DNA from: an uncultured Alteromonadaceae bacterium
GTDB taxonomy: Bacteria > Pseudomonadota > Gammaproteobacteria > Pseudomonadales > Halieaceae
Length of the DNA: 36,212 bases
Reading direction: 5' to 3'
Assembly: GCA_913064725.1 (NCBI GenBank)
Contig: CAJYAI010000024.1
Span: forward strand, 1 to 36,212
Below, one piece after another: positions 735 through 28,681 of the stretch. The translations under genes and the position numbers were made by a program. The stretch's first letter is position 1; each line of letters starts with the position of its first letter. Under the pieces are notes generated by a model. That model was not told the DNA's origin, made no database searches, and saw only the letters and a program-made list of their open reading frames with translations.

Positions 735-1490
735 TTAGTCTGCGGGTCCTGCCCCGAGTCGAGAGTTTCCGGTTGATTCCACAAGTGTTAATTTTGCAAA
801 TTGGTTGAGCGTAGCCCACAGCGCATCGTCGACCGTGATCCCGCGGCTCCCACTCTGTGATCGAGCATCGAGGAGCTCCGCTTCATCATGCTTAGCTAAT
901 AAATTGTATTCGTAGTCGGATCGCATAGTGGGCAGTAGATCAACGTGGTTTGCCATAACGATGCTGATGCCCGTGTTTTCTTGAGTCTCTTCGGGCACTT
1001 CAGATACTGCGTAAATTCGAATGGATGGCACCGATGAGTTCGCACGAAAACCAACGACTTGCTCGGTGAGAGGTTGCTGCGAATTTCGCCAAAAAGCGGT
1101 AATGTTCATCCCGCGGTTCGCCAGCCGTGCCAAGTACCCCATGATCAGTTGTCGCTGTCGGCAACGCCTAATCTTAAGAATAGACAGTCCGCGCGCTCTC
1201 GCCTTGGCGAAGGTCAGCTCTAGCGGAAGGTGGGAGCAGGCCAATACGCTTGCGTTGTGCGCGTCGAGGACGGTGACATCGGTATCCTGATAGAGCCTCT
1301 CAGCCGGCGCGTGGGGATGTTCAAGGGAATACTGGGCCAGTGCGTCGCTGAGCGCTTTCAATCCTTCGAATCCCAGGCTCTCCATCCAGCAGAGCATGTC
1401 GGCGGCATCGACGGCCTGGCCGTCAGAAAATCCCATACCAATAAACGCTTTGCGAGAGAGAGACTCGAGTTCATTAAAGGACACTTTCAT
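735..1490 (-). CDS. DUF3726-type protein of unknown function
   Basis: The 251-aa product resembles the DUF3726 family from memory of its N-terminal pattern (MKVSFNELESLSRKAFIGMG followed by a helical stretch). That N-terminus also looks like the helical start of the Ldh_2 malate/lactate dehydrogenase family, but the rest of that enzyme is absent. There is no signal peptide or membrane segment, so it is probably cytoplasmic. Its ATG overlaps the stop of the upstream 576-aa gene by 4 nt, which implies translational coupling. A role with the neighbouring aldehyde dehydrogenase, dipeptidase-like protein and BCCT transporter is inferred from context only. No catalytic residues can be named. Confidence 0.75.
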   Translation of the reverse strand: MKVSFNELESLSRKAFIGMGFSDGQAVDAADMLCWMESLGFEGLKALSDALAQYSLEHPHAPAERLYQDTDVTVLDAHNASVLACSHLPLELTFAKARARGLSILKIRRCRQRQLIMGYLARLANRGMNITAFWRNSQQPLTEQVVGFRANSSVPSIRIYAVSEVPEETQENTGISIVMANHVDLLPTMRSDYEYNLLAKHDEAELLDARSQSGSRGITVDDALWATLNQFAKLTLVESTGNSRLGAGPAD

Positions 1491-3217
1491 GGTTGTGGGA
1501 TGCTGGTGTTAGGTTGCTCGGGGCAGACAGGGAAGCTCCAGTCATCGAAGGCACTCAGATCGGTGGGTTCTGCATTGAGCTCCGATAAGAGTGGTGCCCC
1601 CTGAAAGAACGTCACGCGAACCCATCGATCTCCGCGCGGATCGAATCGACTGGCACCTAAAAATGATAATTTCGCGCGCAAGAGATGCATGGGCTTCATA
1701 TCACGGTGCCAGAGATTGGCTCGAATTTCGCCATAGGCCGAGCTTGCCATCGTTTGAATGCGACGGATGATGTCAACCTCTCGAGGCTGCGCCATGAGGT
1801 AGTCTATTGTCAGCGACGTGGGCGATTCATCGAGGTAGTCATTAATGGATTGATGGGTGTGTTGAATTCGAGGTCCGATGGCAAGGGCAAGCTCCTTTTC
1901 CACGCCCTTGTCGACATGACGAATGCCCAGCCGCGGTTCCTCTTTCTCGACTGATCGATACCAGAACCAGTATTGTCCATCCTCGGTGTTAAAGCGCTCG
2001 TTTAGCGCCCAGTCAAAGTGCGTCTCTATCAATTGCCTAAGCTGCACCAGTGGCATATCAGGCACCAGATCGAACGCTTCCTCCACCGACATAGCATCTT
2101 CTAAGAAATCCACCTGATCTGGGTATAGCTCAATCAGCAGGGCGTTGATGAGCTCCTGCGTCTCTAGCGACAGAGCGGCTTCGGCCCAATCAGTCAGCTG
2201 CAGCCACAGGTCATCCTCAGCCGCTACTTGCTGAAGCCAGATTCTGACAAGCTCAAGTTGTTCTGTGACCTCTTGGTTTCTCGACGCCTGCTCGGCGTCC
2301 TCAACTGCAAGATTCTTCATGCTTTGTAAGACGCGAGTCACCAGGACAATCAGTTCATGTTGGCTTATTTCATTCGGTATTTGCTGCTTCGCCAGTGACA
2401 GGGCAGTCTCACGCATGTGCACCCATTGGTTAATGAGCAATGGGTGGTTGATCAAAAAGGGTGCCATCCCAAGGCCTGTCGAATTCCCGATACCGACGTA
2501 ACGCCGGACGGGGTCAATCAACGTTGTTGCGCGGTCGCTTCGGCACTGAGCGATGTGTTCGACTTGGTCTATTGAAAATTGGCGAAGTACATATACGGCG
2601 CACATTTGTGCCGAGAAGGGGTGCCTAAAATCTGGGTTTTCTTTTAGTTGGCGATAGTCTGCGATGCCAAACTTGCCGTTGCCATACACGGCAGTCGTTC
2701 GGTAGAGGTAGCCTGCTGTTTTGAGTAATTCGATGGCGGGCTGTTGACCAGCGCTCAGCGAATCGACACACGCCGAGAAGTTACGGACACTCCGATTGGC
2801 TCGAGAAATAACAAGCAGTTGGGGGTGTTGCCGACCGGCCTCTTGCAGCGGGACGTTCTCAGCCAAAGAGGCCATTAGCGATGCCTCAACATCACCTTCT
2901 ACGAGTCCAAATGTAAGATCCCACGCTTCTGCTATGACTCTATCGGATCGCTCAGAGTCCGCGAGAGCTTTAGCGAATATAACAACATGGTAGCGCGCGT
3001 AGGGCGTTTGAATGCGGTAAATCGCCTCACCGTAGCCAAGCTCGTCTAAATCGAACTTTGCGCGAACAATTTGCCATCGCTGTCGTCCCATTTTTCGGAT
3101 GAGAGATCGGGAAAAGCTCAGGCGAGTACTGCTAAGCGCCCCTAGTCGCTGCAAATCCATCACCGTTGCAGGGGGCCGTAGAACCGGAGAGGGGACTTGT
3201 CCAATCTCTAGGGTCAT
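1487..3217 (-). CDS. Conserved-looking 576-aa protein of unknown function
   Basis: I do not recognise this family. The protein is 576 aa, soluble, with no signal peptide or clear membrane segment, and is rich in W, H and R. Visible features include RAKFDLDELGYGEAIYRI near residue 53, a segment around residue 240 with VGIGNSTGLGMAPF, a helical acidic middle (about 300-400) and a C-terminal region with NLWHRDMKPMHLLRAKLSF. It overlaps the flanking genes by 4 nt on both sides (dipeptidase-like upstream, DUF3726-type downstream), so it is embedded in the ALDH-to-BCCT operon and probably acts in the same pathway. It could be an enzyme or a large accessory subunit; neither can be shown from the sequence. 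The gene is certainly coding, because of its length and coupling. Confidence 0.85.
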   Translation of the reverse strand: MTLEIGQVPSPVLRPPATVMDLQRLGALSSTRLSFSRSLIRKMGRQRWQIVRAKFDLDELGYGEAIYRIQTPYARYHVVIFAKALADSERSDRVIAEAWDLTFGLVEGDVEASLMASLAENVPLQEAGRQHPQLLVISRANRSVRNFSACVDSLSAGQQPAIELLKTAGYLYRTTAVYGNGKFGIADYRQLKENPDFRHPFSAQMCAVYVLRQFSIDQVEHIAQCRSDRATTLIDPVRRYVGIGNSTGLGMAPFLINHPLLINQWVHMRETALSLAKQQIPNEISQHELIVLVTRVLQSMKNLAVEDAEQASRNQEVTEQLELVRIWLQQVAAEDDLWLQLTDWAEAALSLETQELINALLIELYPDQVDFLEDAMSVEEAFDLVPDMPLVQLRQLIETHFDWALNERFNTEDGQYWFWYRSVEKEEPRLGIRHVDKGVEKELALAIGPRIQHTHQSINDYLDESPTSLTIDYLMAQPREVDIIRRIQTMASSAYGEIRANLWHRDMKPMHLLRAKLSFLGASRFDPRGDRWVRVTFFQGAPLLSELNAEPTDLSAFDDWSFPVCPEQPNTSIPQP

Positions 3218-16126: not shown

Positions 16127-16154
16127 AAAAAAAACCGGGGCAGAGCCCCGGTTT
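16127..16154 (-). terminator. Rho-independent terminator of the pcs-mcr operon
   Basis: Read on the minus strand, a perfect 10-bp stem AAACCGGGGC / GCCCCGGTTT with a 3-nt loop occupies 16154-16132. A run of eight T (five beyond the stem) extends to 16127. It begins about 20 bp after the mcr stop codon, exactly where an operon-ending terminator is expected, and separates the operon from the transporter gene. Confidence 0.93.
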
Positions 16155-16175
16155 CAGTGATCACCCTGCCCAGAG

Positions 16176-19100
16176 TTACACCGTTACTGCGTTACCACGG
16201 AAAATCTTCGACAAATACCGACTCTCAGACGGTGTCGGCGCTGGCACGGAGCACTGCATGACGGCATGCACCAGTCGTGTCATTTCTTCAGCCAGTTCCT
16301 GATCGTTTGAGGGCTCTTCGGTATGTGCTCTGCGCGTCAACTGCACCTGATTTATCGCGGGTACAGTCGGCAGACGCTCGCCTTCTACACCGAGCGTCAC
16401 GGTAAAGGCGTGCAATGAGTTCTTAACGAACAAAGCGAGCGCAAACTCCTCTCGTGTAGAGGCTAACGATGTATCGGGTGTTATCAGCACGATCTGACAG
16501 TTGGGCACCAACGCTGACGTCCGCGCTACTCGGAAGTGGTGCGTTAACTGATCATGGACCAGTTTTCTAAACTCACCATCACTCAATACACGATCCCATG
16601 ACTCATTGGCGCTCGCCGCCAAGGCATTGAGCGGCAGCCGCTCAAAGGGACTGCTAACGACAACATCATAGCCGCCATCATCACGCAAGATGGCGTCGAG
16701 GTTGGACTCAATATCGTCGCCAATGGCGCGGCATTCGATATTGGCACCATTGGGATTGCTCACCGCATGTTTTAGAGAATTTGCAGCGTCCTCCGTCTTT
16801 GTCAGAACCCAGAGTTTTTCGACGTGTTGCGCCAAAAAGCCATTCGCAATATTCGTCAGTTCGCTTTTCATGGAATTACCAATCAAAACGACGCGTTTAC
16901 CCTTCAGCTTGGCCACCTCACTTTCATTAGGCGGCAGTAAGAGCTCGCCCTCGGTCACCGAGCGATCAAATTTCAGTCCGCCCGAGGGATGGAACGTCTC
17001 CCCACTGACGATGTCGTCGGCTAGGTGAAAGACGGTCGACAGTCCCACTTGCTCATCGGTGGGCATCTTGTGCAGATGCAGCCGGTTCAAAATGCCAGTT
17101 TCTATCTGCTCCGCTTGCTTGGATGTTTCCGCGAAGTCGAAGAAAGGTGCAGGGGCGTCGACAAAGGCATCCAAAAATTGGTCTCTCTGTTCGTCACTCA
17201 GCAGTCCGGCGCGCACCAAGCGAGTCATCAATTTAGACGCAATGCCGGTATGCATAAGGTACTGAGAAGAATTCCCTAGACCACCCGAGTCGCGAACCTT
17301 CAGAATCAAGCGCGCAATGGGTTTAGGTAGGGCGTCGACATCGACAGCATCCAGTCTATTCGTTGCAAGCGTTAAAACATCTGCAACACCGAAATCATCG
17401 GACATACCCGCTAGGATAGCTTTGTGGATTTCATTGAGCCGCTTATTCTCAAGGACGAGCAGGCCCCGACGATCAAACAAGCCAGGTGCTTCCGCCGATC
17501 CACGCAGGCGTGCACCATCCACCGGGCCCGGGGCTAATGCGTTGATTTGAATTTCGGGACCGAGATGGCGAGACAGTATCTCAGCAAGAACCCGCTGCCC
17601 GGCCTTTGATACGGCGTAATCTGCGCGATTTGGATAGGCCACCGCAACATATTTTTCACCGCCGAAATAACTTGAAACGTTCAGTATCGAGCCCTTGCCA
17701 CCTGCTTTCATGGCTGGACTAAATTTTCGGATCAGCGAGTAGTTGGAAATCAGGTTAGCTTCCATCGTGCGGTCCCATGCCGCTCGCGTCATATCAACAA
17801 CCATCTCTTCGGCACCTGAAATGCCAGCGTTATTGATCAAAAAGTCCACGTGACCCAGTTCTGCTACCGCGTGATCGTGTAAACGATCAAGCGCATCAGG
17901 ATCTCCGACGTCAATGCCGCCCAAAATCTTGACCCGTCCTTCGGGTCGGGGGTAGCCAATATTGCGCAGCTCTTCAACAATATCGGCACGTGCTTCAGCC
18001 AGCTTTTCTTCGCTCCTAGCACTCAATAGTACTCGCGCGCCGGCTATAGCTAGGAAGCGCCCCAATTGCAGGCCAATACCCAAGCTGCCTCCTGTTATGA
18101 CGGCAGTTCGACCCTTGTGCAGCCCTGGAAGAACACGAGAAATAGAGGAGGGCATCGCACTTTTTCCAGTGGAGCGCTTGATGCTTCTGGGTAACCAAAG
18201 GTTGATGGAATCCATCTTACGGACGCGGTTGGTTAGCGTTGCGGCCCAATCCGCGGCAAAGGTCAGCGCTTCGGCGTCTTCCGTATCGTAGCGAACCATC
18301 TGATTGGGCTGAACCGCCCAAGGCAAGTCACCTGTATTCGCCAGTGTTTCATCCTCGTGACGCCAACCCCTGATAAGTGCCTCGACCGATGCTCGAATGA
18401 TCTCGTTCATTAGATTGCCGTGACGATCAGAGGGATTGGTGACATAGACGATGGCAGGTGGTTCGCCGTCTGCGAATAACAGGTCCATATTTCGGGCAAA
18501 ACTGGAGGCAAAAGCCACTGGCGCGACGACTTCGTCACGGACGAAGTTTGCCACGTCTTCATCGTTAGCGGTGCATAATGAGTAGCCGTATTCGCCATTG
18601 GGCTTCTGTGGCAGTAAAATGACGCCATCCAGCTGGCCGAATTGGTCTGCGATCAACTGCATGGATCGGTCCACTGATTCGCGACGCAGTGGGTCTAGGT
18701 GCGATAACTGAATATCGCCAAGGTCTTTTGCCTGAACTAGTGCGCGAGCATGCCCGACTATGGGGAGATTCCGGAAGGCAAGCATGACGCGTGCACCACT
18801 CTGAATTTGTCGTTCTGCGAAGGTCACAGCTTCCTGGTAATCGTCACCACCTAGGATCAATACAACTTGCCCAGATAAATCTTCCAACCGCTTGTCTGGC
18901 CAAGACACTAGTTGCGATCGGCTCTGGGCCGGCACCTGCATGCCGTTGGTAACCTCGATGTGGTGTCCAGACAATGCCGAGGACTCATCGGAAGCTAGCC
19001 AGATAATGCCCGAAGCCACATCTGTCGGTGTTGGGTATTTGTATTCCAAACCACCATCCGAGGTGCGCGTTGTAATCATCAGGTCACGAAACTCTTTACC

Positions 19101-19826
19101 AGTGCTGCCCGGTTCCACGCCTTGAAGTTCATCCATGCGAGCAAACACGCTTTCAATGCGCTCCGATTCAATCGGTCCGGGGAAGAGTGTGTTGACTCGT
19201 ATCCCTTGCTTTTCGCCTAGCTCGAGGGCCAAGCCTTTTCCTAATGCATTGAGCCCAGACTTTGGCACCACATAGGGGATGCGTCCGTAATAGTGGGTTC
19301 GCGAAAAAATAGTAGAGACATTGATGATACTGCCACCCGCGGACATATGCGGTGCCGCTGCCCTCGCCATATTCCAGGGCGCCCCCAGCAAGTTCATCGC
19401 AGAGTCAAACATGGTTTGATCTGAGTCGGCAGCGCGCTGCTCGGCCTCTGTGAAGGGTATATCCCGAAGTGTGAACTTAGGGCCCGCGGCTCCCGCATTG
19501 TTCACTAAAACATCAATTGAACCGAATGCAGCGACCGTTTTGGCCACGATGTCGCGACAAACGGCGGGATCAGCACAGTCGCCGGTGGCGCTGACCATTG
19601 CGGCAGCCTCAAAGCCCTCTTCGACGAGGTCCTCCATAAAGCCATTGAGCTTGCTCTGATCTCGGCCTGTCAACATGACGCGAGCGCCCTCGCGAAGCAG
19701 CTGCCGCGTAATGAAGCTACCAATGGAGCCGGCAGCGCCCGTTAGGATGATGCATTTGCTGTCTAGTCGACGACCAGCGATGGACTGCGTTAACAGCTCC
19801 GGGGAAATATCGCTCATATCATTCAT
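16176..19826 (-). CDS. mcr: Bifunctional malonyl-CoA reductase (malonyl-CoA to 3-hydroxypropionate)
   Basis: The 1216-aa product matches the Chloroflexus-type bifunctional enzyme (about 1220 aa) in length and layout: four Rossmann/SDR-like domains in two halves. The N-terminal half has a nucleotide loop TGAAGSIG (29-36), VNNAG (108-112) and the catalytic pair Tyr185/Lys189 (YVVPK); in the family it reduces malonate semialdehyde to 3-hydroxypropionate. The C-terminal half starts near 570 with TGGSLGIG (578-585), INNAG (664-668) and Tyr737/Lys741 (YAVSK); in the family it reduces malonyl-CoA to the semialdehyde. Domains near 318-540 and 985-1190 look like degenerate Rossmann partners without an intact Tyr/Lys pair. 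Both reductions use NADPH in known enzymes. The start overlaps the pcs stop by 4 nt. All visible catalytic residues are intact, so both activities are expected. Confidence 0.94.
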   Translation of the reverse strand: MNDMSDISPELLTQSIAGRRLDSKCIILTGAAGSIGSFITRQLLREGARVMLTGRDQSKLNGFMEDLVEEGFEAAAMVSATGDCADPAVCRDIVAKTVAAFGSIDVLVNNAGAAGPKFTLRDIPFTEAEQRAADSDQTMFDSAMNLLGAPWNMARAAAPHMSAGGSIINVSTIFSRTHYYGRIPYVVPKSGLNALGKGLALELGEKQGIRVNTLFPGPIESERIESVFARMDELQGVEPGSTGKEFRDLMITTRTSDGGLEYKYPTPTDVASGIIWLASDESSALSGHHIEVTNGMQVPAQSRSQLVSWPDKRLEDLSGQVVLILGGDDYQEAVTFAERQIQSGARVMLAFRNLPIVGHARALVQAKDLGDIQLSHLDPLRRESVDRSMQLIADQFGQLDGVILLPQKPNGEYGYSLCTANDEDVANFVRDEVVAPVAFASSFARNMDLLFADGEPPAIVYVTNPSDRHGNLMNEIIRASVEALIRGWRHEDETLANTGDLPWAVQPNQMVRYDTEDAEALTFAADWAATLTNRVRKMDSINLWLPRSIKRSTGKSAMPSSISRVLPGLHKGRTAVITGGSLGIGLQLGRFLAIAGARVLLSARSEEKLAEARADIVEELRNIGYPRPEGRVKILGGIDVGDPDALDRLHDHAVAELGHVDFLINNAGISGAEEMVVDMTRAAWDRTMEANLISNYSLIRKFSPAMKAGGKGSILNVSSYFGGEKYVAVAYPNRADYAVSKAGQRVLAEILSRHLGPEIQINALAPGPVDGARLRGSAEAPGLFDRRGLLVLENKRLNEIHKAILAGMSDDFGVADVLTLATNRLDAVDVDALPKPIARLILKVRDSGGLGNSSQYLMHTGIASKLMTRLVRAGLLSDEQRDQFLDAFVDAPAPFFDFAETSKQAEQIETGILNRLHLHKMPTDEQVGLSTVFHLADDIVSGETFHPSGGLKFDRSVTEGELLLPPNESEVAKLKGKRVVLIGNSMKSELTNIANGFLAQHVEKLWVLTKTEDAANSLKHAVSNPNGANIECRAIGDDIESNLDAILRDDGGYDVVVSSPFERLPLNALAASANESWDRVLSDGEFRKLVHDQLTHHFRVARTSALVPNCQIVLITPDTSLASTREEFALALFVKNSLHAFTVTLGVEGERLPTVPAINQVQLTRRAHTEEPSNDQELAEEMTRLVHAVMQCSVPAPTPSESRYLSKIFRGNAVTV

Positions 19827-22800
19827 CGAAGTGCTCCTGCTGAACCTGTGTCTACTTTCGTCAATATTTCGCCTCGCTCCATCGCATCGCGAATAGCCCA
19901 GGCACGGTACAACTCATCCCGCGACTTCAGATTAGTACGCGGAAGGGCGTGCATAGCTACGTAGTTAGCACCGGCATGGCGGTTTTCCCACATGGCCTGG
20001 TGCGCTTCTGGCACACCTTCCATTGGAATAATGGTCGGCGGCAGAACGTTGATATGACCCGCAGCAATACGCTCCTGCATCTCGGCAAATTCTCGCGACG
20101 TATTTAGGTGCGTACCTCTGATTTCAGCGGTCGGCATGAGGATACGGCGTTGACGCATCCACACCTGTGGTGCATAGAAGGTGAAGCGGGCGCCCTTTAA
20201 GTCCTCGGAATAAACGATTTTTCCGACGTTTGGTTTGACGAGCGATGTCGCAAGTGCAAGACCATCACGTCCAGCGCGCTCAAAGACCACGTCTGGCAAG
20301 CCACGTTTGTCGAGCGTATTGCGAAGTAACGGTGCTATTGCCGATCCGATTGGTTTTAAGGTGCGATCCGAGAACGCCCTAACGGACTCTTTGAAGGCCG
20401 CAGACTCAGTGAACGGATTCGGCATCTTTTGAAATGGCCCGGGTGGATCGAAATCGTCACCCAGCCTACGCTCGATTTCTTCGATGCTGACAACGCCTTT
20501 CATCTGCGCACCGAAACCCAGAGATGTGACAAACTCCCGCTGTGACACGGTATCAGCCAGCACTGCGACCTGTGCGCCGCGCTGACATCCCACTTCGATT
20601 GCTTCGATGGCGACGCGATCCACTATGCCGTCCTCAGCGCCGGGTCCGTAGACCACAAGCAGTGATTGACCCGCACGTAAACCCGCTTTTGAAAATTGCG
20701 CTGCAGGCGTAGATGCGCCGGATTTACCCATAAAAGTAAAGCGGTAGCCTGAGGACGCGCCATAAAACGTCAAGACGCCGTTATCACCAAGCAGCTGAAA
20801 TGAACGCGGAAATGCAGTTTCTCCGGCATGGGACACCGAGTAGTCGATCTGCCCACCGACAAGCCGCTCAGCTTCGGCGACAAAGGGTTCGCCTGCGGCT
20901 TCCCAGCTTGCCCACTCGGATGGATTATCCGGCACCGCGGTGAAGATGTCGGCCCAGCGTTCGTCCTTTCGATTAATAGCATAGCCACCAACCGCATTTA
21001 CACGCTCGCCTCTCGCGTCACTTGACACCATCCCAAGTGCGGAACAGCTCGAGGAGAGGGCGCTGCGCAAACAGTCGTAGCCCGTACCGGTCGAGGCACC
21101 CTCTACAAACAGGCGCTTGTTCGGCTCGATGGCAAGTGTTTTGTAGAGTGCGCGGTGAATAGTGCCCATGGTCAGGCCATAAGAGCCAGCTTCTTCAATG
21201 CTCAAACCAGGTAGTTTTGGATGGAGCTGAGGTCCTTGGACGGTCAGGAACTGTGCGTGGCTACCATCATTGCGCTCGTAGCCTTGAATCCTGAAGTCGG
21301 CCGCCATGGGATCAAGACCTTGATCTGGTGCCATGAGTTCGCTTTGCCCTGAGTAAACCGTGACGATATCGCCTACTGATAGGCGACCTTCACGGATGAG
21401 GTCTTGGCCAAGCTGGGCGACCATAGCGACACCACCTGAACCGGTTACCTGAACATCCGCATCACGTGCGTCAAAGGGAGAAACGGGAATGCCTGTAATC
21501 GCCCAGATGTCATTGAAGTTCATCTCGGAGGCAAGGATGTAAACCAAAGCCTCGTTGGGACCTGGCGAGGGGGTAGGTAGCACCAATTCTTTTTCAGCCA
21601 CCTCGGGGTCGCCGTGAAGCGGACTACCATCCACATGCGAACGCATCACACCATAACCCAATTGATATTCCGGAATCGGAGTAATACCCGGGAAGAAGCT
21701 TGCACCCATGGGCAGTAACTTGCCGTCGCGGATAAGCGTCGCGCGCTCGTCGGGCGATGCATCGGGCTGAACCGATTTTGGCTTCGGCGGTAATGGCGCA
21801 CCGCGCTTTTCTAAAAACGCAGAGATCCCAGCGGGTCCGCATTCTGGATCACACACGCCTTGGGCAAATAATTCGGCCTCCCGCTGCAGTCCAGCGGTTT
21901 GACCATGACGTGCGCCCGTGAACATGGCATCGATGATGAGGTCAACCGGCTTATGTCGGCCACTGGCTCGTATCTGCTTCAGCGCAAGAGCCACACCGGT
22001 GTGCTCAAGAAGCGATTCGTCAATGTGTAAGGCGGTCTCGCGTTGTTTCTTGAGCTTTCGTCGGCGCGCCATTGACTGCTTAAGTGCGTCGCCACCGGCG
22101 AAGTGGTTGCGAAGTGCATCCATCGCCGCTTCCACGGTTGAGAGCCCCTCGGTCGTAACAATGTCATCGATAAGGCCTATTTCAAGCGCCGTTTCGGCAT
22201 CAATGGTGCGCCCGTCAAGCATCATACGTAGCGCGTGTGCTGCACCGTCCGTACCGTGGGCTTCAAACAACTTACGGGTCAGACGTTGGGTGCCACCGTA
22301 GCCGGGAAGCAGATTGAGATTGATCTCAGGCTGACCAAATTCGGCATGCTGTGCGGCTATGACGTGAGAGCAAGCCAAAACCAGCTCGTTTCCGCCGCCC
22401 AGTGCGGGGCCGTTGACCGCGGCAATGATGGGGATATCGAGATTTTCAAGCGTCGCAAATGCGGCTTGCGCCGTATTCGGCAGAGTCCGCGCCGACTCTA
22501 GGTCGCCTTTCTCGCCTATTTTCAGGAGTTCCTTGACGTCGGCACCGGCAACAAAGGTATTGCGCGCGCCTGTCACGACCATGGCCGAAAGGTCGTCCTG
22601 GTGAGCAAGCTGGGTGAGTGCTGTGTGGAGTTCGTCGAGGGTCCGCTCGCTTAGCGCGTTAACGGGTGGACTGCTGATAACAACCAAGGCCACGAGATGG
22701 CCCGGTGCAATTTCGTGGGTTTCAACCCTCAGATAGCGCCAAGTCTGCACGACACGGCGAGCTTCTGTTAGGCGTCCAAAGTCCTTCCACTGGGCGACAG

Positions 22801-25234
22801 CAGTCCGAATTTCTTCAACAGATTCCGGGTTCTTAAGGGTCGAGATATCGCCCAGTGGCTGCTCTAGTAAAATCGAACGAAGAGTCCGGCGCATGTATTT
22901 GCCGGAACGAGTTTCTGGGAAAGCCGACACCACTAAGAAATCAGACGGAACTGCAGTGGCGCCCTTTTCGGAGCGAACCAAAGATTGCAGGCGCGCGAGG
23001 TCATCATCAGAGAGCTTGCGACCAGCAGCAGCAACAAGGAATGCTACGGGCGTCTCACCTTTTTCGTCGTGGGGTGCGCCAACTACGACCACATTGCCGA
23101 CGGGAGAATCCTCGCGGAGCGTTTTGTCTCGTAAAATCGCGCCCTCGATTTCCTCGGTTCCGATGCGATGTCCTGAAACGTTGATAACATCGTCGGAGCG
23201 ACCGTGCAGAGTGAACGCGCCGTCGTCGTGTTGTCGAGCGTAGTCACCCTGTGTGTAGGTCAGCTCTCCGTCCCAGCGCGCAAAGTAGACCTCACTAAAT
23301 CGGTCGATATCGCCACGCCAGCTGTCACTAAATAAGTTATCTGCGTCGCCCCATAACGTTCGTGCAAGGTAGGGATAAGGCTGGGTGATTACCAGTTCGC
23401 CTTTTTCACCGGGCTCTGCCGTGCGCCATGTCGTGACCGTGCCATCAGTTGCCGTTGTCTCGGCAATCCGCACCTCAGCTTGAATCCACGGTAGGGCCCA
23501 GGTTTTTGCATCGGCAGCTAGGGGCTTGTAGCCACCCCATGGACAGCTGAATACGATGCCTCCGTGTTCGGTAGCCCAATAGGAGTTGATGTAGTGCTGG
23601 CAGATGTTATCCATCGCAAACTGCTGCACGGCGGGTGACACCGGCTCTGCACAGAATGTCCCTGCACGCAGGCTGGACATATCAAAGTCAGCCATTTCAC
23701 GCGCACTAGCAGGATCTGTCATGACCGCTTTGAGGAACGTAGACCCTGCTTTAAACAGGGTAACTTTGTAGCGCTCGATGATGGATGAGAATCGGCCGGC
23801 ATGGGGGAATAGAGGGGAGCCTTCAGCGATCACCGTGGTCATGCCTTGAACAAGCGGTGCGGCAATGAGATAGCTTTGTCCCGTAATCCAGCCTGGATCA
23901 CCAATGACGTAGAGCGTGTCATCCGGCGTCGCGTTGAAGACGGTGCGCATGGTGTGACTAACGCCACTGAGCCAGCTGCCGTGGGTATGCACGACACCTT
24001 TTGGTTTGCCGGTGGAGCCAGAGGTATAAATAATAAATAACGGAAAGTTTGAATCTACCCCTTCAACGGGCAATACCGCGTTAAGTTTGGACCAAAGGGC
24101 TTCTGCGTCCTCTTGAGTTAGATCATCAAACGAGGCGAGACCCAGCTGTGTCGCAATCTTAGCTTTTGCTGAATCGACCAAATCATTGGACCATCGGTCG
24201 CGACCATGCTCGACGATTTCTTGCCCGGTGTAATCGACAACAATCACGTTGTCGACATCGTGTTTTGCGTCCGCCAGTTGTCGTGCAACCGCAGTTCGCA
24301 AATCTGCAGTCAACTCAGCCGCAATAGACTGCTGTTTCACAAGTGACGCGCCGAGCTCGCGCATGACGTCTGAGCGTTCAAGTGTGATTTCGCCGCCCAG
24401 TGCCTCACTCACGTCGGCATAGAGTGTGTCGGCAACATCGCCTAAATTGTAGGTTGCCAGAACGGCTTTGAGGGTGCGTAGCGCGGCCTCACGAGGTATG
24501 TAGTTATCCAGCGCAGGATCGGTATAAGTCCCTTTGTAGGCCACCACCTCGGCGTTTCGGTACCCGCCATCGGCGGTAATGACTAATTTGGCCCCTGCAT
24601 CATGGATGCGGTCCGAGAGTGTTTTGGCTGAAAAGCCGCCAAAAACGGGGGTGTAGACGACGCCCATTCGTTGAGCGGCGAGCATATAAAAAACCTGCTC
24701 AGGGATATTAGGGAGGTTGAACGCGATGCGATCACCTTTCGTCAAGCCGAGGTCTTTGAAGACCTGCATGCGGAGGATAACTTCTTGAAAAAGGTTGCGG
24801 TAGCTGATGTGTTGCTCAGTAACAGGGCCGCCGCGGCCATTATTTTTGGAAGGATCCCATCGGTCGCCCTCGAAAATGATAGCGGTTTTTTCCGCTCGAC
24901 CCAGGAGTAAGTGGCGATCAACAAGATTGAAGCAGGCGTTGGTTTGCCCACCGGTGAACCATTTGTAATAAGGCGCCGCTGATCGATCTAAAACCTGCTG
25001 CCAAGGCGTCCAGTCATCTGCCGAAACCTCTCTTGCAGCAGCTTTCGAGTCCCAGCCATGCCAGGTATTGTCGGGTTCTTTGGCGAGCCATGCGCCGCTA
25101 GCCGGGTGCAGCCAGTGAATTTCTCGCGATGCCACTGCACCGTGATAGTCATCCGTGGTGCTGGTGATGTGTTGTTTAAGCGCATCCTCATCGGACTGCG
25201 ACGTCAATACGCCCCAGATATGGTCATCGCTCAT
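19823..25234 (-). CDS. pcs: Trifunctional propionyl-CoA synthase (3-hydroxypropionate to propionyl-CoA)
   Basis: At 1803 aa this matches the known Pcs (about 1820 aa). Residues 1 to about 830 are an acetyl-CoA-synthetase-type ligase: YTSGSTGKPKG (403-413), YWATEHGG (552-559), GRSDDVINVSGHR (678-690) and catalytic Lys779 in SGKYMRR. Residues of about 840-1115 form a crotonase-type hydratase: AGADV (897-901), GGGNEL (946-951) and FGQPEINLNLLPGYGG, with candidate catalytic Glu950 and Glu970. Residues of about 1170-1803 form an MDR-type reductase of the crotonyl/acryloyl-CoA reductase group (SEMNFNDIWAITGIP at 1236, EGASTGTGYD at 1378). The enzyme activates 3-hydroxypropionate, dehydrates it to acryloyl-CoA and reduces that to propionyl-CoA; the published Erythrobacter structure shows a closed chamber holding the toxic acryloyl-CoA. 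The start follows GAGGGAGAGAACC. First gene of the pcs-mcr operon. Confidence 0.96.
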   Translation of the reverse strand: MSDDHIWGVLTSQSDEDALKQHITSTTDDYHGAVASREIHWLHPASGAWLAKEPDNTWHGWDSKAAAREVSADDWTPWQQVLDRSAAPYYKWFTGGQTNACFNLVDRHLLLGRAEKTAIIFEGDRWDPSKNNGRGGPVTEQHISYRNLFQEVILRMQVFKDLGLTKGDRIAFNLPNIPEQVFYMLAAQRMGVVYTPVFGGFSAKTLSDRIHDAGAKLVITADGGYRNAEVVAYKGTYTDPALDNYIPREAALRTLKAVLATYNLGDVADTLYADVSEALGGEITLERSDVMRELGASLVKQQSIAAELTADLRTAVARQLADAKHDVDNVIVVDYTGQEIVEHGRDRWSNDLVDSAKAKIATQLGLASFDDLTQEDAEALWSKLNAVLPVEGVDSNFPLFIIYTSGSTGKPKGVVHTHGSWLSGVSHTMRTVFNATPDDTLYVIGDPGWITGQSYLIAAPLVQGMTTVIAEGSPLFPHAGRFSSIIERYKVTLFKAGSTFLKAVMTDPASAREMADFDMSSLRAGTFCAEPVSPAVQQFAMDNICQHYINSYWATEHGGIVFSCPWGGYKPLAADAKTWALPWIQAEVRIAETTATDGTVTTWRTAEPGEKGELVITQPYPYLARTLWGDADNLFSDSWRGDIDRFSEVYFARWDGELTYTQGDYARQHDDGAFTLHGRSDDVINVSGHRIGTEEIEGAILRDKTLREDSPVGNVVVVGAPHDEKGETPVAFLVAAAGRKLSDDDLARLQSLVRSEKGATAVPSDFLVVSAFPETRSGKYMRRTLRSILLEQPLGDISTLKNPESVEEIRTAVAQWKDFGRLTEARRVVQTWRYLRVETHEIAPGHLVALVVISSPPVNALSERTLDELHTALTQLAHQDDLSAMVVTGARNTFVAGADVKELLKIGEKGDLESARTLPNTAQAAFATLENLDIPIIAAVNGPALGGGNELVLACSHVIAAQHAEFGQPEINLNLLPGYGGTQRLTRKLFEAHGTDGAAHALRMMLDGRTIDAETALEIGLIDDIVTTEGLSTVEAAMDALRNHFAGGDALKQSMARRRKLKKQRETALHIDESLLEHTGVALALKQIRASGRHKPVDLIIDAMFTGARHGQTAGLQREAELFAQGVCDPECGPAGISAFLEKRGAPLPPKPKSVQPDASPDERATLIRDGKLLPMGASFFPGITPIPEYQLGYGVMRSHVDGSPLHGDPEVAEKELVLPTPSPGPNEALVYILASEMNFNDIWAITGIPVSPFDARDADVQVTGSGGVAMVAQLGQDLIREGRLSVGDIVTVYSGQSELMAPDQGLDPMAADFRIQGYERNDGSHAQFLTVQGPQLHPKLPGLSIEEAGSYGLTMGTIHRALYKTLAIEPNKRLFVEGASTGTGYDCLRSALSSSCSALGMVSSDARGERVNAVGGYAINRKDERWADIFTAVPDNPSEWASWEAAGEPFVAEAERLVGGQIDYSVSHAGETAFPRSFQLLGDNGVLTFYGASSGYRFTFMGKSGASTPAAQFSKAGLRAGQSLLVVYGPGAEDGIVDRVAIEAIEVGCQRGAQVAVLADTVSQREFVTSLGFGAQMKGVVSIEEIERRLGDDFDPPGPFQKMPNPFTESAAFKESVRAFSDRTLKPIGSAIAPLLRNTLDKRGLPDVVFERAGRDGLALATSLVKPNVGKIVYSEDLKGARFTFYAPQVWMRQRRILMPTAEIRGTHLNTSREFAEMQERIAAGHINVLPPTIIPMEGVPEAHQAMWENRHAGANYVAMHALPRTNLKSRDELYRAWAIRDAMERGEILTKVDTGSAGALR

Positions 25235-25441
25235 GGTTCTCTCCCTCTCGAAACAGTCTCCGCGGAGGGGGTTAGAAAAGACGACGAGCCGACAAACCTA
25301 TGCTTGCCGTTCCTCCGCTCTTGATCAAGCACCGGAAAACCGGTTCCCACCTACGCTCGATTACGCATGAGATACGTCCCGCAAAAGGCCCTAGATCACC
25401 AGAATTGGTAATTTGCCACATGTGAAATGGCGAGTATTTGG
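25235..25441 (-). promoter_or_regulatory. pcs-mcr upstream region with small palindromes
   Basis: The 207-bp gap upstream of pcs must hold the operon promoter unless transcription continues from the dehydratase gene on the same strand. It contains a 10-bp palindrome CTCCGCGGAG at 25258-25267, a small hairpin ACCGG-AAAA-CCGGT at 25331-25344 and the palindrome CACATGTG at 25417-25424. No confident -35/-10 pair was found, and no TGT-N12-ACA site of the PpsR type. These elements are candidates only. Confidence 0.35.
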
Positions 25442-26444: not shown

Positions 26445-26903
26445 ATGATATGCCGAACTAACACTATTACACAGTGTGGGGCACGTTCAGTGTTGGATTA
26501 TGTACAACACGACGGGGGGCGGCAGGAGGCCGGTTTTCGTGGTCGCTCAGATTGCGTCGTGCGCGCTATTTGTTTGGTCACAGGCGACGTCTATGCGGAT
26601 GTGCGCCGTGATTTGTCCTATCTGCAGAAAAAGATGACCGGAGGCTTGTATCCGTCCATTGCCGACGGCGTGATGACGCCAGTTCATTATCTCTATCTCA
26701 CCGGCAAGGGCTGGCGACTCGAGCTGACCAAAAACACCTATCTGCCTGATATTCCTCGTGATGGACGTTTTATTGCGGTCATACCGCGGCATGTGATGGC
26801 CGTTTGCAACGGCACGGTCTGGGATGCTTGGGATTCTCGCTTCAGCCGGAAAACAAAAAGTGGATACCCTCGGCTCTTAGGCTACTACTGCCCGCCAACC
26901 TAA
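26445..26903 (+). CDS. Small protein with possible papain-like Cys/His residues, unknown function
   Basis: The 152-aa frame contains SDCVVRAICLVTG near residue 35 and GRFIAVIPRHVMAVCNGTVW followed by DAWDSR near 105-130. This is the spacing of a Cys...His...Asp arrangement seen in small papain-like or C39-like proteins of phages and bacteria. That resemblance is from memory and tentative. There is no signal peptide. The annotated ATG is only 28 bp from the divergent dehydratase ATG and has a weak ribosome-binding site; an in-frame GTG at 26490, preceded by TGGGGCACG, is a plausible true start. Confidence 0.6.
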   Translation: MICRTNTITQCGARSVLDYVQHDGGRQEAGFRGRSDCVVRAICLVTGDVYADVRRDLSYLQKKMTGGLYPSIADGVMTPVHYLYLTGKGWRLELTKNTYLPDIPRDGRFIAVIPRHVMAVCNGTVWDAWDSRFSRKTKSGYPRLLGYYCPPT

Positions 26904-27382: not shown

Positions 27383-28681
27383 CTATTCTTCCTTTGACAA
27401 ATGTGCCAGCGCACCAGAATTTTTTTCCCAGTTTCGTCCATCAAATGGCTTGTCGTAAATGACCTCTACGGTATCCATGACTAAGCAGCGAGCATTGACG
27501 CTAACACCGTCGGGATTGGATCTCGGTATATAAAACGACTTAATACCGCAGTGGCTACAAAAGTAGTGTTTTGCTAAGTGGCTACCATAGGTATAAAGCG
27601 ACAGCGCATCTTCACCTTCTACAATCCGGAAACGACCTTTAGGGACGAGCAGATGCTGATAGTGGGTGATGTCGCAGATGGAGCAATTGCAAGTGTGCGT
27701 ATCAAGAACCGCCGGTGCCTCGACAGTCCATTGCACGGTGCCGCAGTGACAAGATCCCCGGTGGCTGACACGCTCTGCTGTCACCGCGGTCTGAATTTTT
27801 TCACCGCGGAGCCGAATTTGCTCAATCAGACCAGATGTATCCCACCGACCACCGCCATTTGCTTGCACATTGGCGTAATGATTATCGACCATTGCGGCTA
27901 TTGGTAGATGAAGCCCTAACTCTTGGGCGACATCCAGTGCGAACCCGAGATCTTTGCGCATCCAATCTACGGCGAAGCCAAAATCGTAGTCTCGTGCCGC
28001 TATGCTCGTGGCTCGATTAGTCATTTGCCATGATTGTGCTGCGCCGCCCTGAATGGCACTTGTGACCTGAGCAATATCGAGTCCGGCACATTCGGCAAAA
28101 TGAAAGGCCTCTGAGAGTCCGCCCAAGACACCCGCTATGCATAATTGATTGACCATTTTGGTTACTTGACCGGTGCCAACGGGACCCATGAGCTGGGTGT
28201 GTTTGGCGTAGGTACTGATAATAGGCTTCACGGTGTTGAACGTCTTTTCATCGCCACCCAGCATGATCGTAAGTACGCCATTCTCGGCACCGGCTTGTCC
28301 GCCCGAAACAGGCGCATCCATGAAACTGATTCCAAGGTCCTCGCAGGCGTTGCTAATATCTTCGGCGAGCGCTCTGGATGTAGTAGTGTGGTCTACCAGT
28401 ATGGCGCCGGGAGTCATGGTGGATAAAACGCCTTCAGGTCCCGTTGTTACGGCGCGAACATCGCTATCATTGCCCACGCAAAGAAAAACGATATCTGCGT
28501 CGACGGCAGCTTCTGAGGGCGTGGGGGCCGACAAGCCATCGTATTGGGCAGTCCATGCGAAGGCTTTGTTTTCGGAGCGGTTGTAAACACAGACTTCGAG
28601 GCCGCTTTTCTTGAGGTGACCGGCCATGGGGTAACCCATTGCACCGAGGCCTATGAAGGCAACCTTATTGATCTGCAACAT
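27383..28681 (-). CDS. Fusion of a 3-hydroxyisobutyrate-type dehydrogenase and a GFA (CENP-V/GFA) domain
   Basis: Residues 1 to about 292 are a complete beta-hydroxyacid dehydrogenase: NAD(P) loop GLGAMG (11-16), substrate motif DAPVSGGQAGAENG (122-135), and catalytic Lys175 in GQVTKMVNQ. Residues of about 305-425 are a GFA domain with zinc-type cysteines at 311/313 (CHCG), 331/333/336 (CNCSIC) and 375/378 (CSHCG). The two halves are joined in frame by a short linker. The first half oxidises a 3-hydroxy acid to the semialdehyde or does the reverse. The GFA family includes proposed glutathione-dependent formaldehyde-activating enzymes, but its chemistry is poorly settled. The start follows AGGACATGCGTC. 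The gene is divergent from ggt (53 bp) and upstream of ycgN. Substrate unknown. Confidence 0.9.
   Translation of the reverse strand: MLQINKVAFIGLGAMGYPMAGHLKKSGLEVCVYNRSENKAFAWTAQYDGLSAPTPSEAAVDADIVFLCVGNDSDVRAVTTGPEGVLSTMTPGAILVDHTTTSRALAEDISNACEDLGISFMDAPVSGGQAGAENGVLTIMLGGDEKTFNTVKPIISTYAKHTQLMGPVGTGQVTKMVNQLCIAGVLGGLSEAFHFAECAGLDIAQVTSAIQGGAAQSWQMTNRATSIAARDYDFGFAVDWMRKDLGFALDVAQELGLHLPIAAMVDNHYANVQANGGGRWDTSGLIEQIRLRGEKIQTAVTAERVSHRGSCHCGTVQWTVEAPAVLDTHTCNCSICDITHYQHLLVPKGRFRIVEGEDALSLYTYGSHLAKHYFCSHCGIKSFYIPRSNPDGVSVNARCLVMDTVEVIYDKPFDGRNWEKNSGALAHLSKEE

Follow-up and report, generated by a model that had tools for sequence, protein, structure and literature searches.

Contig CAJYAI010000024.1, a stretch of 36212 nucleotides (hereafter the window) from an uncultured marine Halieaceae bacterium, carries on its minus strand two long open reading frames (ORFs), pcs and mcr, arranged as an operon that is transcribed from right to left with pcs ahead of mcr. 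Their predicted products are propionyl-CoA synthase (Pcs) and malonyl-CoA reductase (Mcr) of the 3-hydroxypropionate (3HP) pathway, and the present analysis concerns what the pair may do in this lineage. In the 2.63 Mb assembly (G000; the letters G, C and L label genomes, contigs and loci throughout), which is 98.3% complete, the window forms contig C24. Both ORFs start with ATG, and their coordinates agree with a first-pass annotation of the sequence, which had described two very large genes with a 4-nt overlap and a perfect terminator at the end of the operon. The features are as follows.

19823..25234, minus strand: pcs, trifunctional propionyl-CoA synthase, 1803 amino acids (match to 6EQO, 1847 bits; Pcs tree)
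22898..25009, minus strand: CoA-ligase (ACS) part of Pcs, residues 76-779 (ACAS_N, AMP-binding, AMP-binding_C)
21995..22693, minus strand: enoyl-CoA hydratase part of Pcs, residues 848-1080 (ECH_1)
19970..21616, minus strand: enoyl/acrylyl-CoA reductase part of Pcs, residues ~1207-1755 (ADH_zinc_N_2)
16176..19826, minus strand: mcr, bifunctional malonyl-CoA reductase, 1216 amino acids (domains, 8HI4 match, tree, residue check)
18168..19772, minus strand: N-terminal half of Mcr (SDR1-2), malonate semialdehyde to 3-hydroxypropionate, residues 19-553 (8HI6 match)
16179..18131, minus strand: C-terminal half of Mcr (SDR3-ED-SDR4), malonyl-CoA to malonate semialdehyde, residues 566-1216 (8HI5 match)
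19823..19826, minus strand: 4-nt overlap between the end of pcs and the start of mcr (ORF coordinates)
16131..16155, minus strand: intrinsic terminator hairpin, 11 pairs, with a T-rich tail (hairpin analysis)
25235..25441, minus strand: intergenic stretch ahead of pcs (with a block near 25396-25411 that close relatives share)

An overlap of exactly -4 is seen again in 27 of the 51 related loci that yielded both ORFs, and thus is not a matter of chance. Past mcr, the terminator forms a perfect 11-pair stem (16155-16131) followed by the T-rich tail TTTTACCTTT, with a z-score of -5.15 for the 66-nt stretch. The related loci examined are 80 of 132 confirmed ones, and no Pcs ORF was obtained from one of them (L051).

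The domain order of Pcs is ACAS_N, AMP-binding, AMP-binding_C, enoyl-CoA hydratase and a zinc-dehydrogenase-type reductase; the protein is thus a CoA ligase, an enoyl-CoA hydratase and an enoyl-CoA reductase fused in that order over ~1800 residues, with all three of the domains that the first-pass annotation had read in it. Residues 17-1782 align nearly end to end with 6EQO (1847 bits), whereas the second-ranking chain, an acetyl-CoA synthetase, reaches 312 bits; 6EQO is named acetyl-coenzyme A synthetase in the structure table, and we take it to be the Pcs of Erythrobacter NAP1. Lys779, presumably the A10-type lysine, and Glu950 and Glu970, which we take to be the catalytic pair of the hydratase part, are kept in 52/52 Pcs rows. 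Six of the seven motif positions compared are invariant in all 52 rows; the seventh is phenylalanine in 49 and tyrosine in three, and the window protein has the common phenylalanine. For the reductase part, the best reductase match was crotonyl-CoA carboxylase/reductase TIGR01751 (176 bits, below the cut-off of that family). Members of the Pcs family convert 3-hydroxypropionate into propionyl-CoA within one enzyme, using ATP and one NADPH.

Mcr consists of two short-chain dehydrogenase/reductase (SDR) units, and its residues 19-1216 align with 8HI4 at 1037 bits. We take 8HI4 to be the Roseiflexus Mcr, which is borne out by the agreement of the residue numbering. The family reaction is malonyl-CoA plus two NADPH to 3-hydroxypropionate. 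The catalytic and substrate residues of the Roseiflexus enzyme were taken from its structural description (PMC10470521) and transferred to the window protein through the alignment row of L074. All 14 named residues are identical: Thr165, Tyr172, Arg175, Tyr178 and Lys182 (Roseiflexus numbering) in the N-terminal half, and Ser731, Tyr743, Arg746, Tyr749, Lys753, Arg785, Leu795, Arg799 and Arg1164 in the C-terminal half, in agreement with the earlier description of both halves as catalytically intact. Thirteen of them are invariant in 30/30 Mcr rows, and the last is arginine in 27 rows, the other three being gapped. Judged from these alignments, it is nearly certain that the two genes encode Pcs and Mcr, and both proteins are probably working enzymes.

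The host is a gammaproteobacterium, as had been supposed; its genome falls in Halieaceae, in a genus (by the grouping of the tool used) that includes HTCC2080 (G059) and Luminiphilus syltensis NOR5-1B (G112). Among the loci examined, the nearest full-length relatives of the window Pcs (86-91% identity) come from metagenome-assembled genomes (MAGs) named Halieaceae or Luminiphilus. Within the family, Pcs was found in 56/140 genomes and Mcr in 47/140, and within the genus in 47/57 and 42/57 respectively, counts in which draft genomes may give false absences. The pair has reportedly been noted in this genus before. Three named cultured species, L. syltensis (L079), C. halotolerans (L047) and P. 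rubra (L043), hold both genes, so that the purpose of the operon is directly testable. In one genome (G111:C18:6977-16030), the frames of both pcs and mcr are broken into several pieces, one mcr piece containing two stops, owing to sequencing error or decay.

In most of the genomes checked, Pcs is accompanied by a type-II photosynthetic reaction centre. The window genome itself encodes a reaction-centre protein (PufL/M; PF00124, 324 bits) at the end of contig C7, and the genes before it appear by eye to be carotenoid and bacteriochlorophyll genes. PF00124 was matched in 46 of the 50 Pcs genomes tested (40 non-Halieaceae and 10 Halieaceae, from the 80 fetched loci), which span four phyla, and in 37/40 of the non-Halieaceae ones. 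Comparisons with Pcs-lacking relatives, in statistics that ignore shared ancestry, gave the same picture. In an even sample of 298 Sphingomonadaceae genomes (the family of Sphingomonas G161), PF00124 was present in 28/31 with Pcs and 27/267 without it (Fisher's test, 7.5e-21); the three exceptions may be draft gaps, since their Pcs matches are partial and two contain an internal stop. Among Halieaceae outside the window's genus, the figures were 6/9 with Pcs and 3/74 without (6/3/3/71; p 1.7e-5), or 5/7 and 1/21 when counted by genus (5/2/1/20; p 0.001). The presence/absence tables were compiled by hand from the search results, and G307, with PF00124 under the cut-off, was not counted as positive. 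At least seven lineages from three phyla combine Pcs with type-II reaction centres, namely Chloroflexales, Sphingomonadales, Rhodopila, Gemmatimonadota, Woeseiaceae, one more gammaproteobacterial group and Halieaceae. The system is found in several grades: the full bi-cycle gene set, Pcs-Mcr only, or Pcs only, the last mostly, not always, without a reaction centre. The co-occurrence with reaction centres suggests, without proving it, that the operon may be a light-fed sink for CO2 and electrons.

The genes around pcs-mcr in other lineages, among them accA of acetyl-CoA carboxylase and the bicarbonate-pump gene DabA, bear on the input of the route. An accA homologue (68-82% identical to that of L071) lies directly after mcr in 6/6 Sphingomonadales loci with a flank beyond mcr (L053, L061, L063, L071, L072 and L084, detected by tblastn in L061; L082 and L083 end within mcr). 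In Roseiflexus (L074), accA lies directly before mcr and a biotin-carboxylase-like stretch follows pcs; accA was confirmed by Pfam in L071 and L074. All three Rhodopila loci tested (L046, L069 and L085) have DabA and an 1800-residue biotin carboxylase-carrier-carboxyltransferase (BC-BCCP-CT) protein before pcs, DabA scoring 914 bits by Pfam in L046 and being 95% identical in L069 and L085, and a DabA homologue (46%) lies upstream of pcs in L063. Across Halieaceae outside the window's genus, DabA was found in 7/9 Pcs genomes and 12/74 others (p 0.0003; two matches are fragments). The genes adjoining the operon point to acetyl-CoA carboxylation with a bicarbonate supply as the input. As a separate observation, the Rhodopila MAG stretch L069 (24-23572) holds a DabB-type proton-antiporter-like gene, DabA, the carboxylase, pcs and mcr within 24 kb, and mesaconyl-CoA hydratase-like, CoA-transferase and malyl-CoA lyase genes within 5 kb after mcr; by gene content it would come close to a 3HP bi-cycle cluster, and its host is an alphaproteobacterium that also has reaction-centre genes.

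On the output side, contig C11 of the window genome carries a row of genes for a carboxyltransferase, a divergent biotin carboxylase/carrier, a glyoxalase-fold protein in the epimerase position, methylmalonyl-CoA mutase (NF006944, 1281 bits, above cut-off) and MeaB. Propionyl-CoA carboxylase, epimerase and methylmalonyl-CoA mutase are thus all represented, the first two by Pfam domains and gene order only, and the mutase family occurs in 133/140 genomes of the family. PF03328 (HpcH/HpaI, the malyl-CoA lyase family) had no match in this genome in a search that finds the Chloroflexus enzyme (744 bits to 4L7Z/4L80, which we take to be Chloroflexus Mcl). With the C11 row present and Mcl absent, conversion of acetyl-CoA into succinyl-CoA is possible and cleavage of malyl-CoA is not.

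We propose that the operon probably serves as a light-fed path of CO2 co-assimilation and as a sink for reductant in the form of NADPH, rather than for autotrophy. Acetyl-CoA carboxylase, assumed to act in front, would supply malonyl-CoA, which Mcr would reduce to 3-hydroxypropionate and Pcs convert into propionyl-CoA; with propionyl-CoA carboxylase, epimerase and methylmalonyl-CoA mutase behind Pcs, acetyl-CoA and two bicarbonate would yield succinyl-CoA in an open route, not a cycle. The route costs three NADPH per acetyl-CoA, plus ATP. Photophosphorylation would pay for the carboxylation and the disposal of NADPH, the carbon coming mainly from organic matter. From gene content, kept residues, co-occurrence and neighbourhoods, all observed directly, we infer that the operon is active, carries flux in this direction in vivo and is linked to light. 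The first-pass annotation had left the purpose unsettled; that verdict can now be narrowed, as the bi-cycle and a substitute for the glyoxylate shunt drop out (see below) and phototrophy-linked CO2 co-assimilation becomes probable. Aerobic anoxygenic phototrophs abound in sunlit ocean water, and the usual view of them is of heterotrophs to which light gives nothing but ATP. Should the route operate, CO2 would supply some of the biomass carbon in the window's genus, and light would alter growth yield. CO2 co-assimilation is not a new idea for single strains, since a study on Porphyrobacter sp. ULC335 (PMC10674011) proposes it there and reports that genes of the route are up by day. Pigment production in Halieaceae strains, L. 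syltensis among them, depends on the cellular redox state according to another report, which also states that genes for redox balancing by fixation of CO2 or N2 had until then escaped detection in obligately aerobic phototrophs (PMC3666943). Strains of that report (L. syltensis, C. halotolerans and P. rubra) carry pcs-mcr loci, and if the operon is a sink of the kind proposed, it would be the CO2-based redox-balancing system that the report called missing. A wider view, in which Pcs-Mcr can be transferred across lineages and serves as a sink for carbon and electrons linked to phototrophy, is tentative, and we give it slightly less than even weight. No statement of a family-wide or cross-phylum association of Pcs with reaction centres, or of a link to DabA, was noticed in the literature surveyed, which included few subscription journals. 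New here are the absence of Mcl and of the bi-cycle, the finding that the glyoxylate shunt is not replaced, the reaction-centre association, the carboxylase and DabA neighbours and the distribution of the dehydratase described below.

Several observations weigh against a light-fed role. Four Pcs genomes lack PF00124 (Myxococcales L037, Porticoccaceae L042 and L075, and Halieaceae L023), and the exceptions are not confined to solitary Pcs: L037 has Mcr beside Pcs, and Halieaceae G040, on the same contig as L023, has both genes. Inside the window's genus, pcs shows no association with PF00124 (38/9/6/4, p 0.21). Among reaction-centre-bearing Sphingomonadaceae 27/55 are without Pcs, and the link is therefore mostly one-way. 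The chief reservation concerns shared ancestry. A methylmalonyl-CoA mutase tree was made for 40 Halieaceae genomes, comprising the full set of 12 from outside the genus with Pcs or a reaction centre, five of the genus, and 23 others drawn from part of the genera. It offered only 4-6 independent pairs with support, with which a sign test is unable to reach 0.05 and has no power; with pcs as the trait, 2.0 pairs went the same way, 0.5 the opposite way and 3.5 showed no difference. In the window, as in Halieaceae L043, L047, L079 and L086, no homologue of accA, DabA or the BC-BCCP-CT carboxylase was found beside the operon, nor did the tested gammaproteobacterial, Gemmatimonas, Woeseiaceae, Porticoccaceae and Myxococcales loci yield one, and DabA was not found in the window genome. 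Finally, the motif TGT-N12-ACA, which we take to be a PpsR-type site, does not occur in the window's region upstream of pcs (25235..25441) and was found in 1/69 such regions, with 3.8 expected from mononucleotide shuffles (the starts of these regions were set by first-start-codon ORFs and may be off); for comparison, a photosynthesis-cluster stretch (L144) has eight sites with 2.9 expected. PpsR-type regulation upstream of pcs was accordingly rejected, and as the motif is not enriched there, the operon is no obvious member of a photosynthesis regulon.

Other roles have to be set beside CO2 co-assimilation. A complete autotrophic 3HP bi-cycle as in Chloroflexus is suggested by the presence of both signature enzymes, Pcs and Mcr; however, without a PF03328 match the window genome has no malyl-CoA, methylmalyl-CoA or citramalyl-CoA lyase, and this assembly contradicts the full bi-cycle. 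As the genome is 98% complete, an overlooked Mcl gene is possible but unlikely, and we regard such a cycle as hardly credible. Distant PF03328 members only (up to 31%) were found in HTCC2080, L. syltensis, Sphingomonas G161 and the gammaproteobacterium G152, those of HTCC2080 and L. syltensis reaching up to 29% identity, while orthologues of Chloroflexus Mcl (63-80%) occur in Pcs-Mcr-bearing Gemmatimonas, Woeseiaceae, Rhodopila and Myxococcales genomes. The route could also make succinyl-CoA from acetyl-CoA and so assimilate acetate in place of the glyoxylate shunt, but isocitrate lyase is present in the window genome and in 128/140 genomes of the family (76/78 of the good ones), with and without pcs, so that the operon is no stand-in for the shunt; we consider this role most improbable. 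A supply of propionyl-CoA, the product of the route, for odd-chain or methyl-branched lipids or polyesters instead of central carbon seems scarcely more than conceivable; it counts weakly against it that no such recurrent neighbour family was noticed among the gene families in >=3 of 31 loci, where most neighbours carry no annotation. More serious is the proposal that the main task of the operon is to feed 3-hydroxypropionate or malonate semialdehyde, derived from dimethylsulfoniopropionate (DMSP)/acrylate, beta-alanine or uracil, into propionyl-CoA, with the CO2 steps incidental. Solitary Pcs fits it: two Porticoccaceae loci (L042 and L075) have Pcs with no Mcr in the fetched flanks and no PF00124, two Halieaceae genomes (G025 and G053) have Pcs with no Mcr match at 1e-60 and no PF00124, and G012 (one contig, 99% complete; L148 6626-12055) has Pcs and PF00124 with no Mcr match at 1e-60. 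The divergent Pcs of G025 (47%; L179 7193-13828) adjoins an iron-type alcohol dehydrogenase, with which it would perhaps form a semialdehyde-to-propionyl-CoA route. Substrate assimilation nevertheless leaves unexplained the intact malonyl-CoA-reducing half of Mcr, the accA, carboxylase and DabA neighbours and the reaction-centre association; we hold it to be unlikely.

A closed 3-hydroxypropionate/4-hydroxybutyrate (HP/HB) cycle, with Pcs-Mcr as the first half and 4-hydroxybutyryl-CoA dehydratase opening a photoautotrophic second half, has been proposed for eight Luminiphilus MAGs (PMC9802188). The window genome encodes a 510-residue PF03241 protein whose matches to 6VJR and 1U8V score 722 and 557 bits, respectively. 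It keeps all four ligands of the [4Fe-4S] cluster, which we take to be C99, C103, H292 and C299 in 1U8V numbering. PF03241 was matched in 54/140 family genomes, in two main score groups; the ligands were checked in the window and HTCC2080 proteins, and elsewhere 'canonical' dehydratase denotes the higher score group, the lower one and the partial or broken matches (G138, G075; G065) not being counted. In the HTCC2080 protein, which falls in the lower group, C99 and H292 are retained, but C103 has become Tyr and C299 Ala; with two of four ligands replaced, this protein is probably no such dehydratase (its gene, L141 7764-9338, has by eye CitE-like and PrpD-like genes alongside). The high group comprises 13 genomes of the window's genus, all with a Pcs near the window's, and 17/83 family genomes outside it. 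Outside the genus it is independent of pcs (3/6/14/60, p 0.38) and sits in 14 genomes lacking pcs, on which account the dehydratase was rejected as a partner of pcs. Its gene surroundings also look catabolic: in the window genome it adjoins flavin-monooxygenase-like and TonB-receptor genes, with a carboxyltransferase ~10 kb away, and in G060 and G063 the carboxyltransferase lies beside the monooxygenase, G060 adding an alpha/beta hydrolase. Moreover, a physiological study states that L. syltensis, C. halotolerans, P. rubra and C. litoralis, all Halieaceae, showed no autotrophic growth in light (PMC3679898); L. syltensis (G112) has no PF03241 match, and its growth result is thus no test of the window's subclade. 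Taken together, gene distribution and surroundings make a closed HP/HB cycle in that subclade unlikely, and as an account of the operon we find it very improbable. As the HTCC2080 homologue with its two missing ligands out of four shows, a PF03241 match alone is no proof of 4-hydroxybutyryl-CoA dehydratase, which qualifies the autotrophy claim made for the genus in PMC9802188.

The first-pass annotation had proposed that the operon probably spread as a unit between distant phyla. In quick LG+G4 trees of both proteins (52 rows for Pcs; midpoint-drawn, no outgroup), the window sequences group with Pcs and Mcr of other lineages, so that the phylogenetic check named in the first-pass annotation does not refute their identity, and the two trees share three groups. 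One joins Halieaceae, Woeseiaceae and Myxococcales, another is Chloroflexota, and the third unites Alphaproteobacteria, Gemmatimonadota and a sediment group of gammaproteobacteria. The identities of Pcs between genomes correlate with those of Mcr (Spearman 0.90; 435 pairs from 30 genomes, the pairs not being independent). Given these phylogenies, joint transfer of pcs-mcr between phyla is the simplest reading, in keeping with the earlier view. Pcs without Mcr occurs in Porticoccaceae, which branch within the Halieaceae group, and in a deep lineage of its own (G025 and G053), whose placement is unsure on account of long branches.

Closer to the operon, promoter-like sites number four compared with 5.9 in shuffles and are thus not commoner than chance, and the strict pattern of the palindrome-like block near 25396-25411 was found in the window and in 4/34 other loci, all close relatives. 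The GPH-type transporter gene after mcr and the threonine-dehydratase-like gene before pcs were rejected as partners, as the window's neighbours are rarely shared: of 30 loci compared, only L009, L030 and, for the transporter, L045 have them. L009 and L030 also contain homologues (432 and 451 residues) of a 432-residue fusion of a 3-hydroxyisobutyrate-dehydrogenase-like and a glutathione-dependent formaldehyde-activating (GFA) domain (27383-28681, minus strand), and homologues of a 152-residue ORF without a Pfam or NCBIfam match (26445-26903, plus strand). Elsewhere in the window, a 576-residue ORF without a Pfam match (1487-3217, minus strand) is flanked on both sides by 4-nt overlaps, with a DUF3726-type gene and an M19 peptidase gene. 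Outside Halieaceae, L189 3390-10826 (Woeseiaceae G140) and L191 6945-13757 (Gemmatimonas G156) are clusters 57-80% identical to the Chloroflexus genes around Mcl; both genomes also hold Pcs-Mcr and reaction centres, and it is possible that they contain complete bi-cycles outside Chloroflexota.

Compared with known systems, the window shares its two signature enzymes with the bi-cycle of Chloroflexus and Roseiflexus, but its genome is without Mcl; gene order differs too, as no mcr was found in the fetched pcs flanks of the Chloroflexus loci and mcr precedes pcs in Roseiflexus (L074). Homology is near full-length, with the same domain order, to the Erythrobacter NAP1 Pcs (6EQO) and to 6K8S and 6K8V, which we take to be Porphyrobacter Mcr; Erythrobacter-type loci have accA after mcr, and their Pcs and Mcr are 49-51% and 41-43% identical to those of the window. 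HTCC2080 (L086) and L. syltensis NOR5-1B (L079) belong to the same genus as the window genome and share the gene order and the 4-nt overlap, with 67-68% identity for Pcs and 67-74% for Mcr. They differ in the 4-hydroxybutyryl-CoA dehydratase, which has canonical ligands in the window genome, is represented in HTCC2080 by a homologue lacking two of them and has no PF03241 counterpart in L. syltensis, and in DabA, which is present in L. syltensis and absent from the window genome. Porphyrobacter sp. ULC335, as portrayed in PMC10674011, is likewise an aerobic anoxygenic phototroph in which key 3HP enzymes occur without a complete fixation pathway; unlike the host of the window, it is an alphaproteobacterium, and one for which expression data are at hand.

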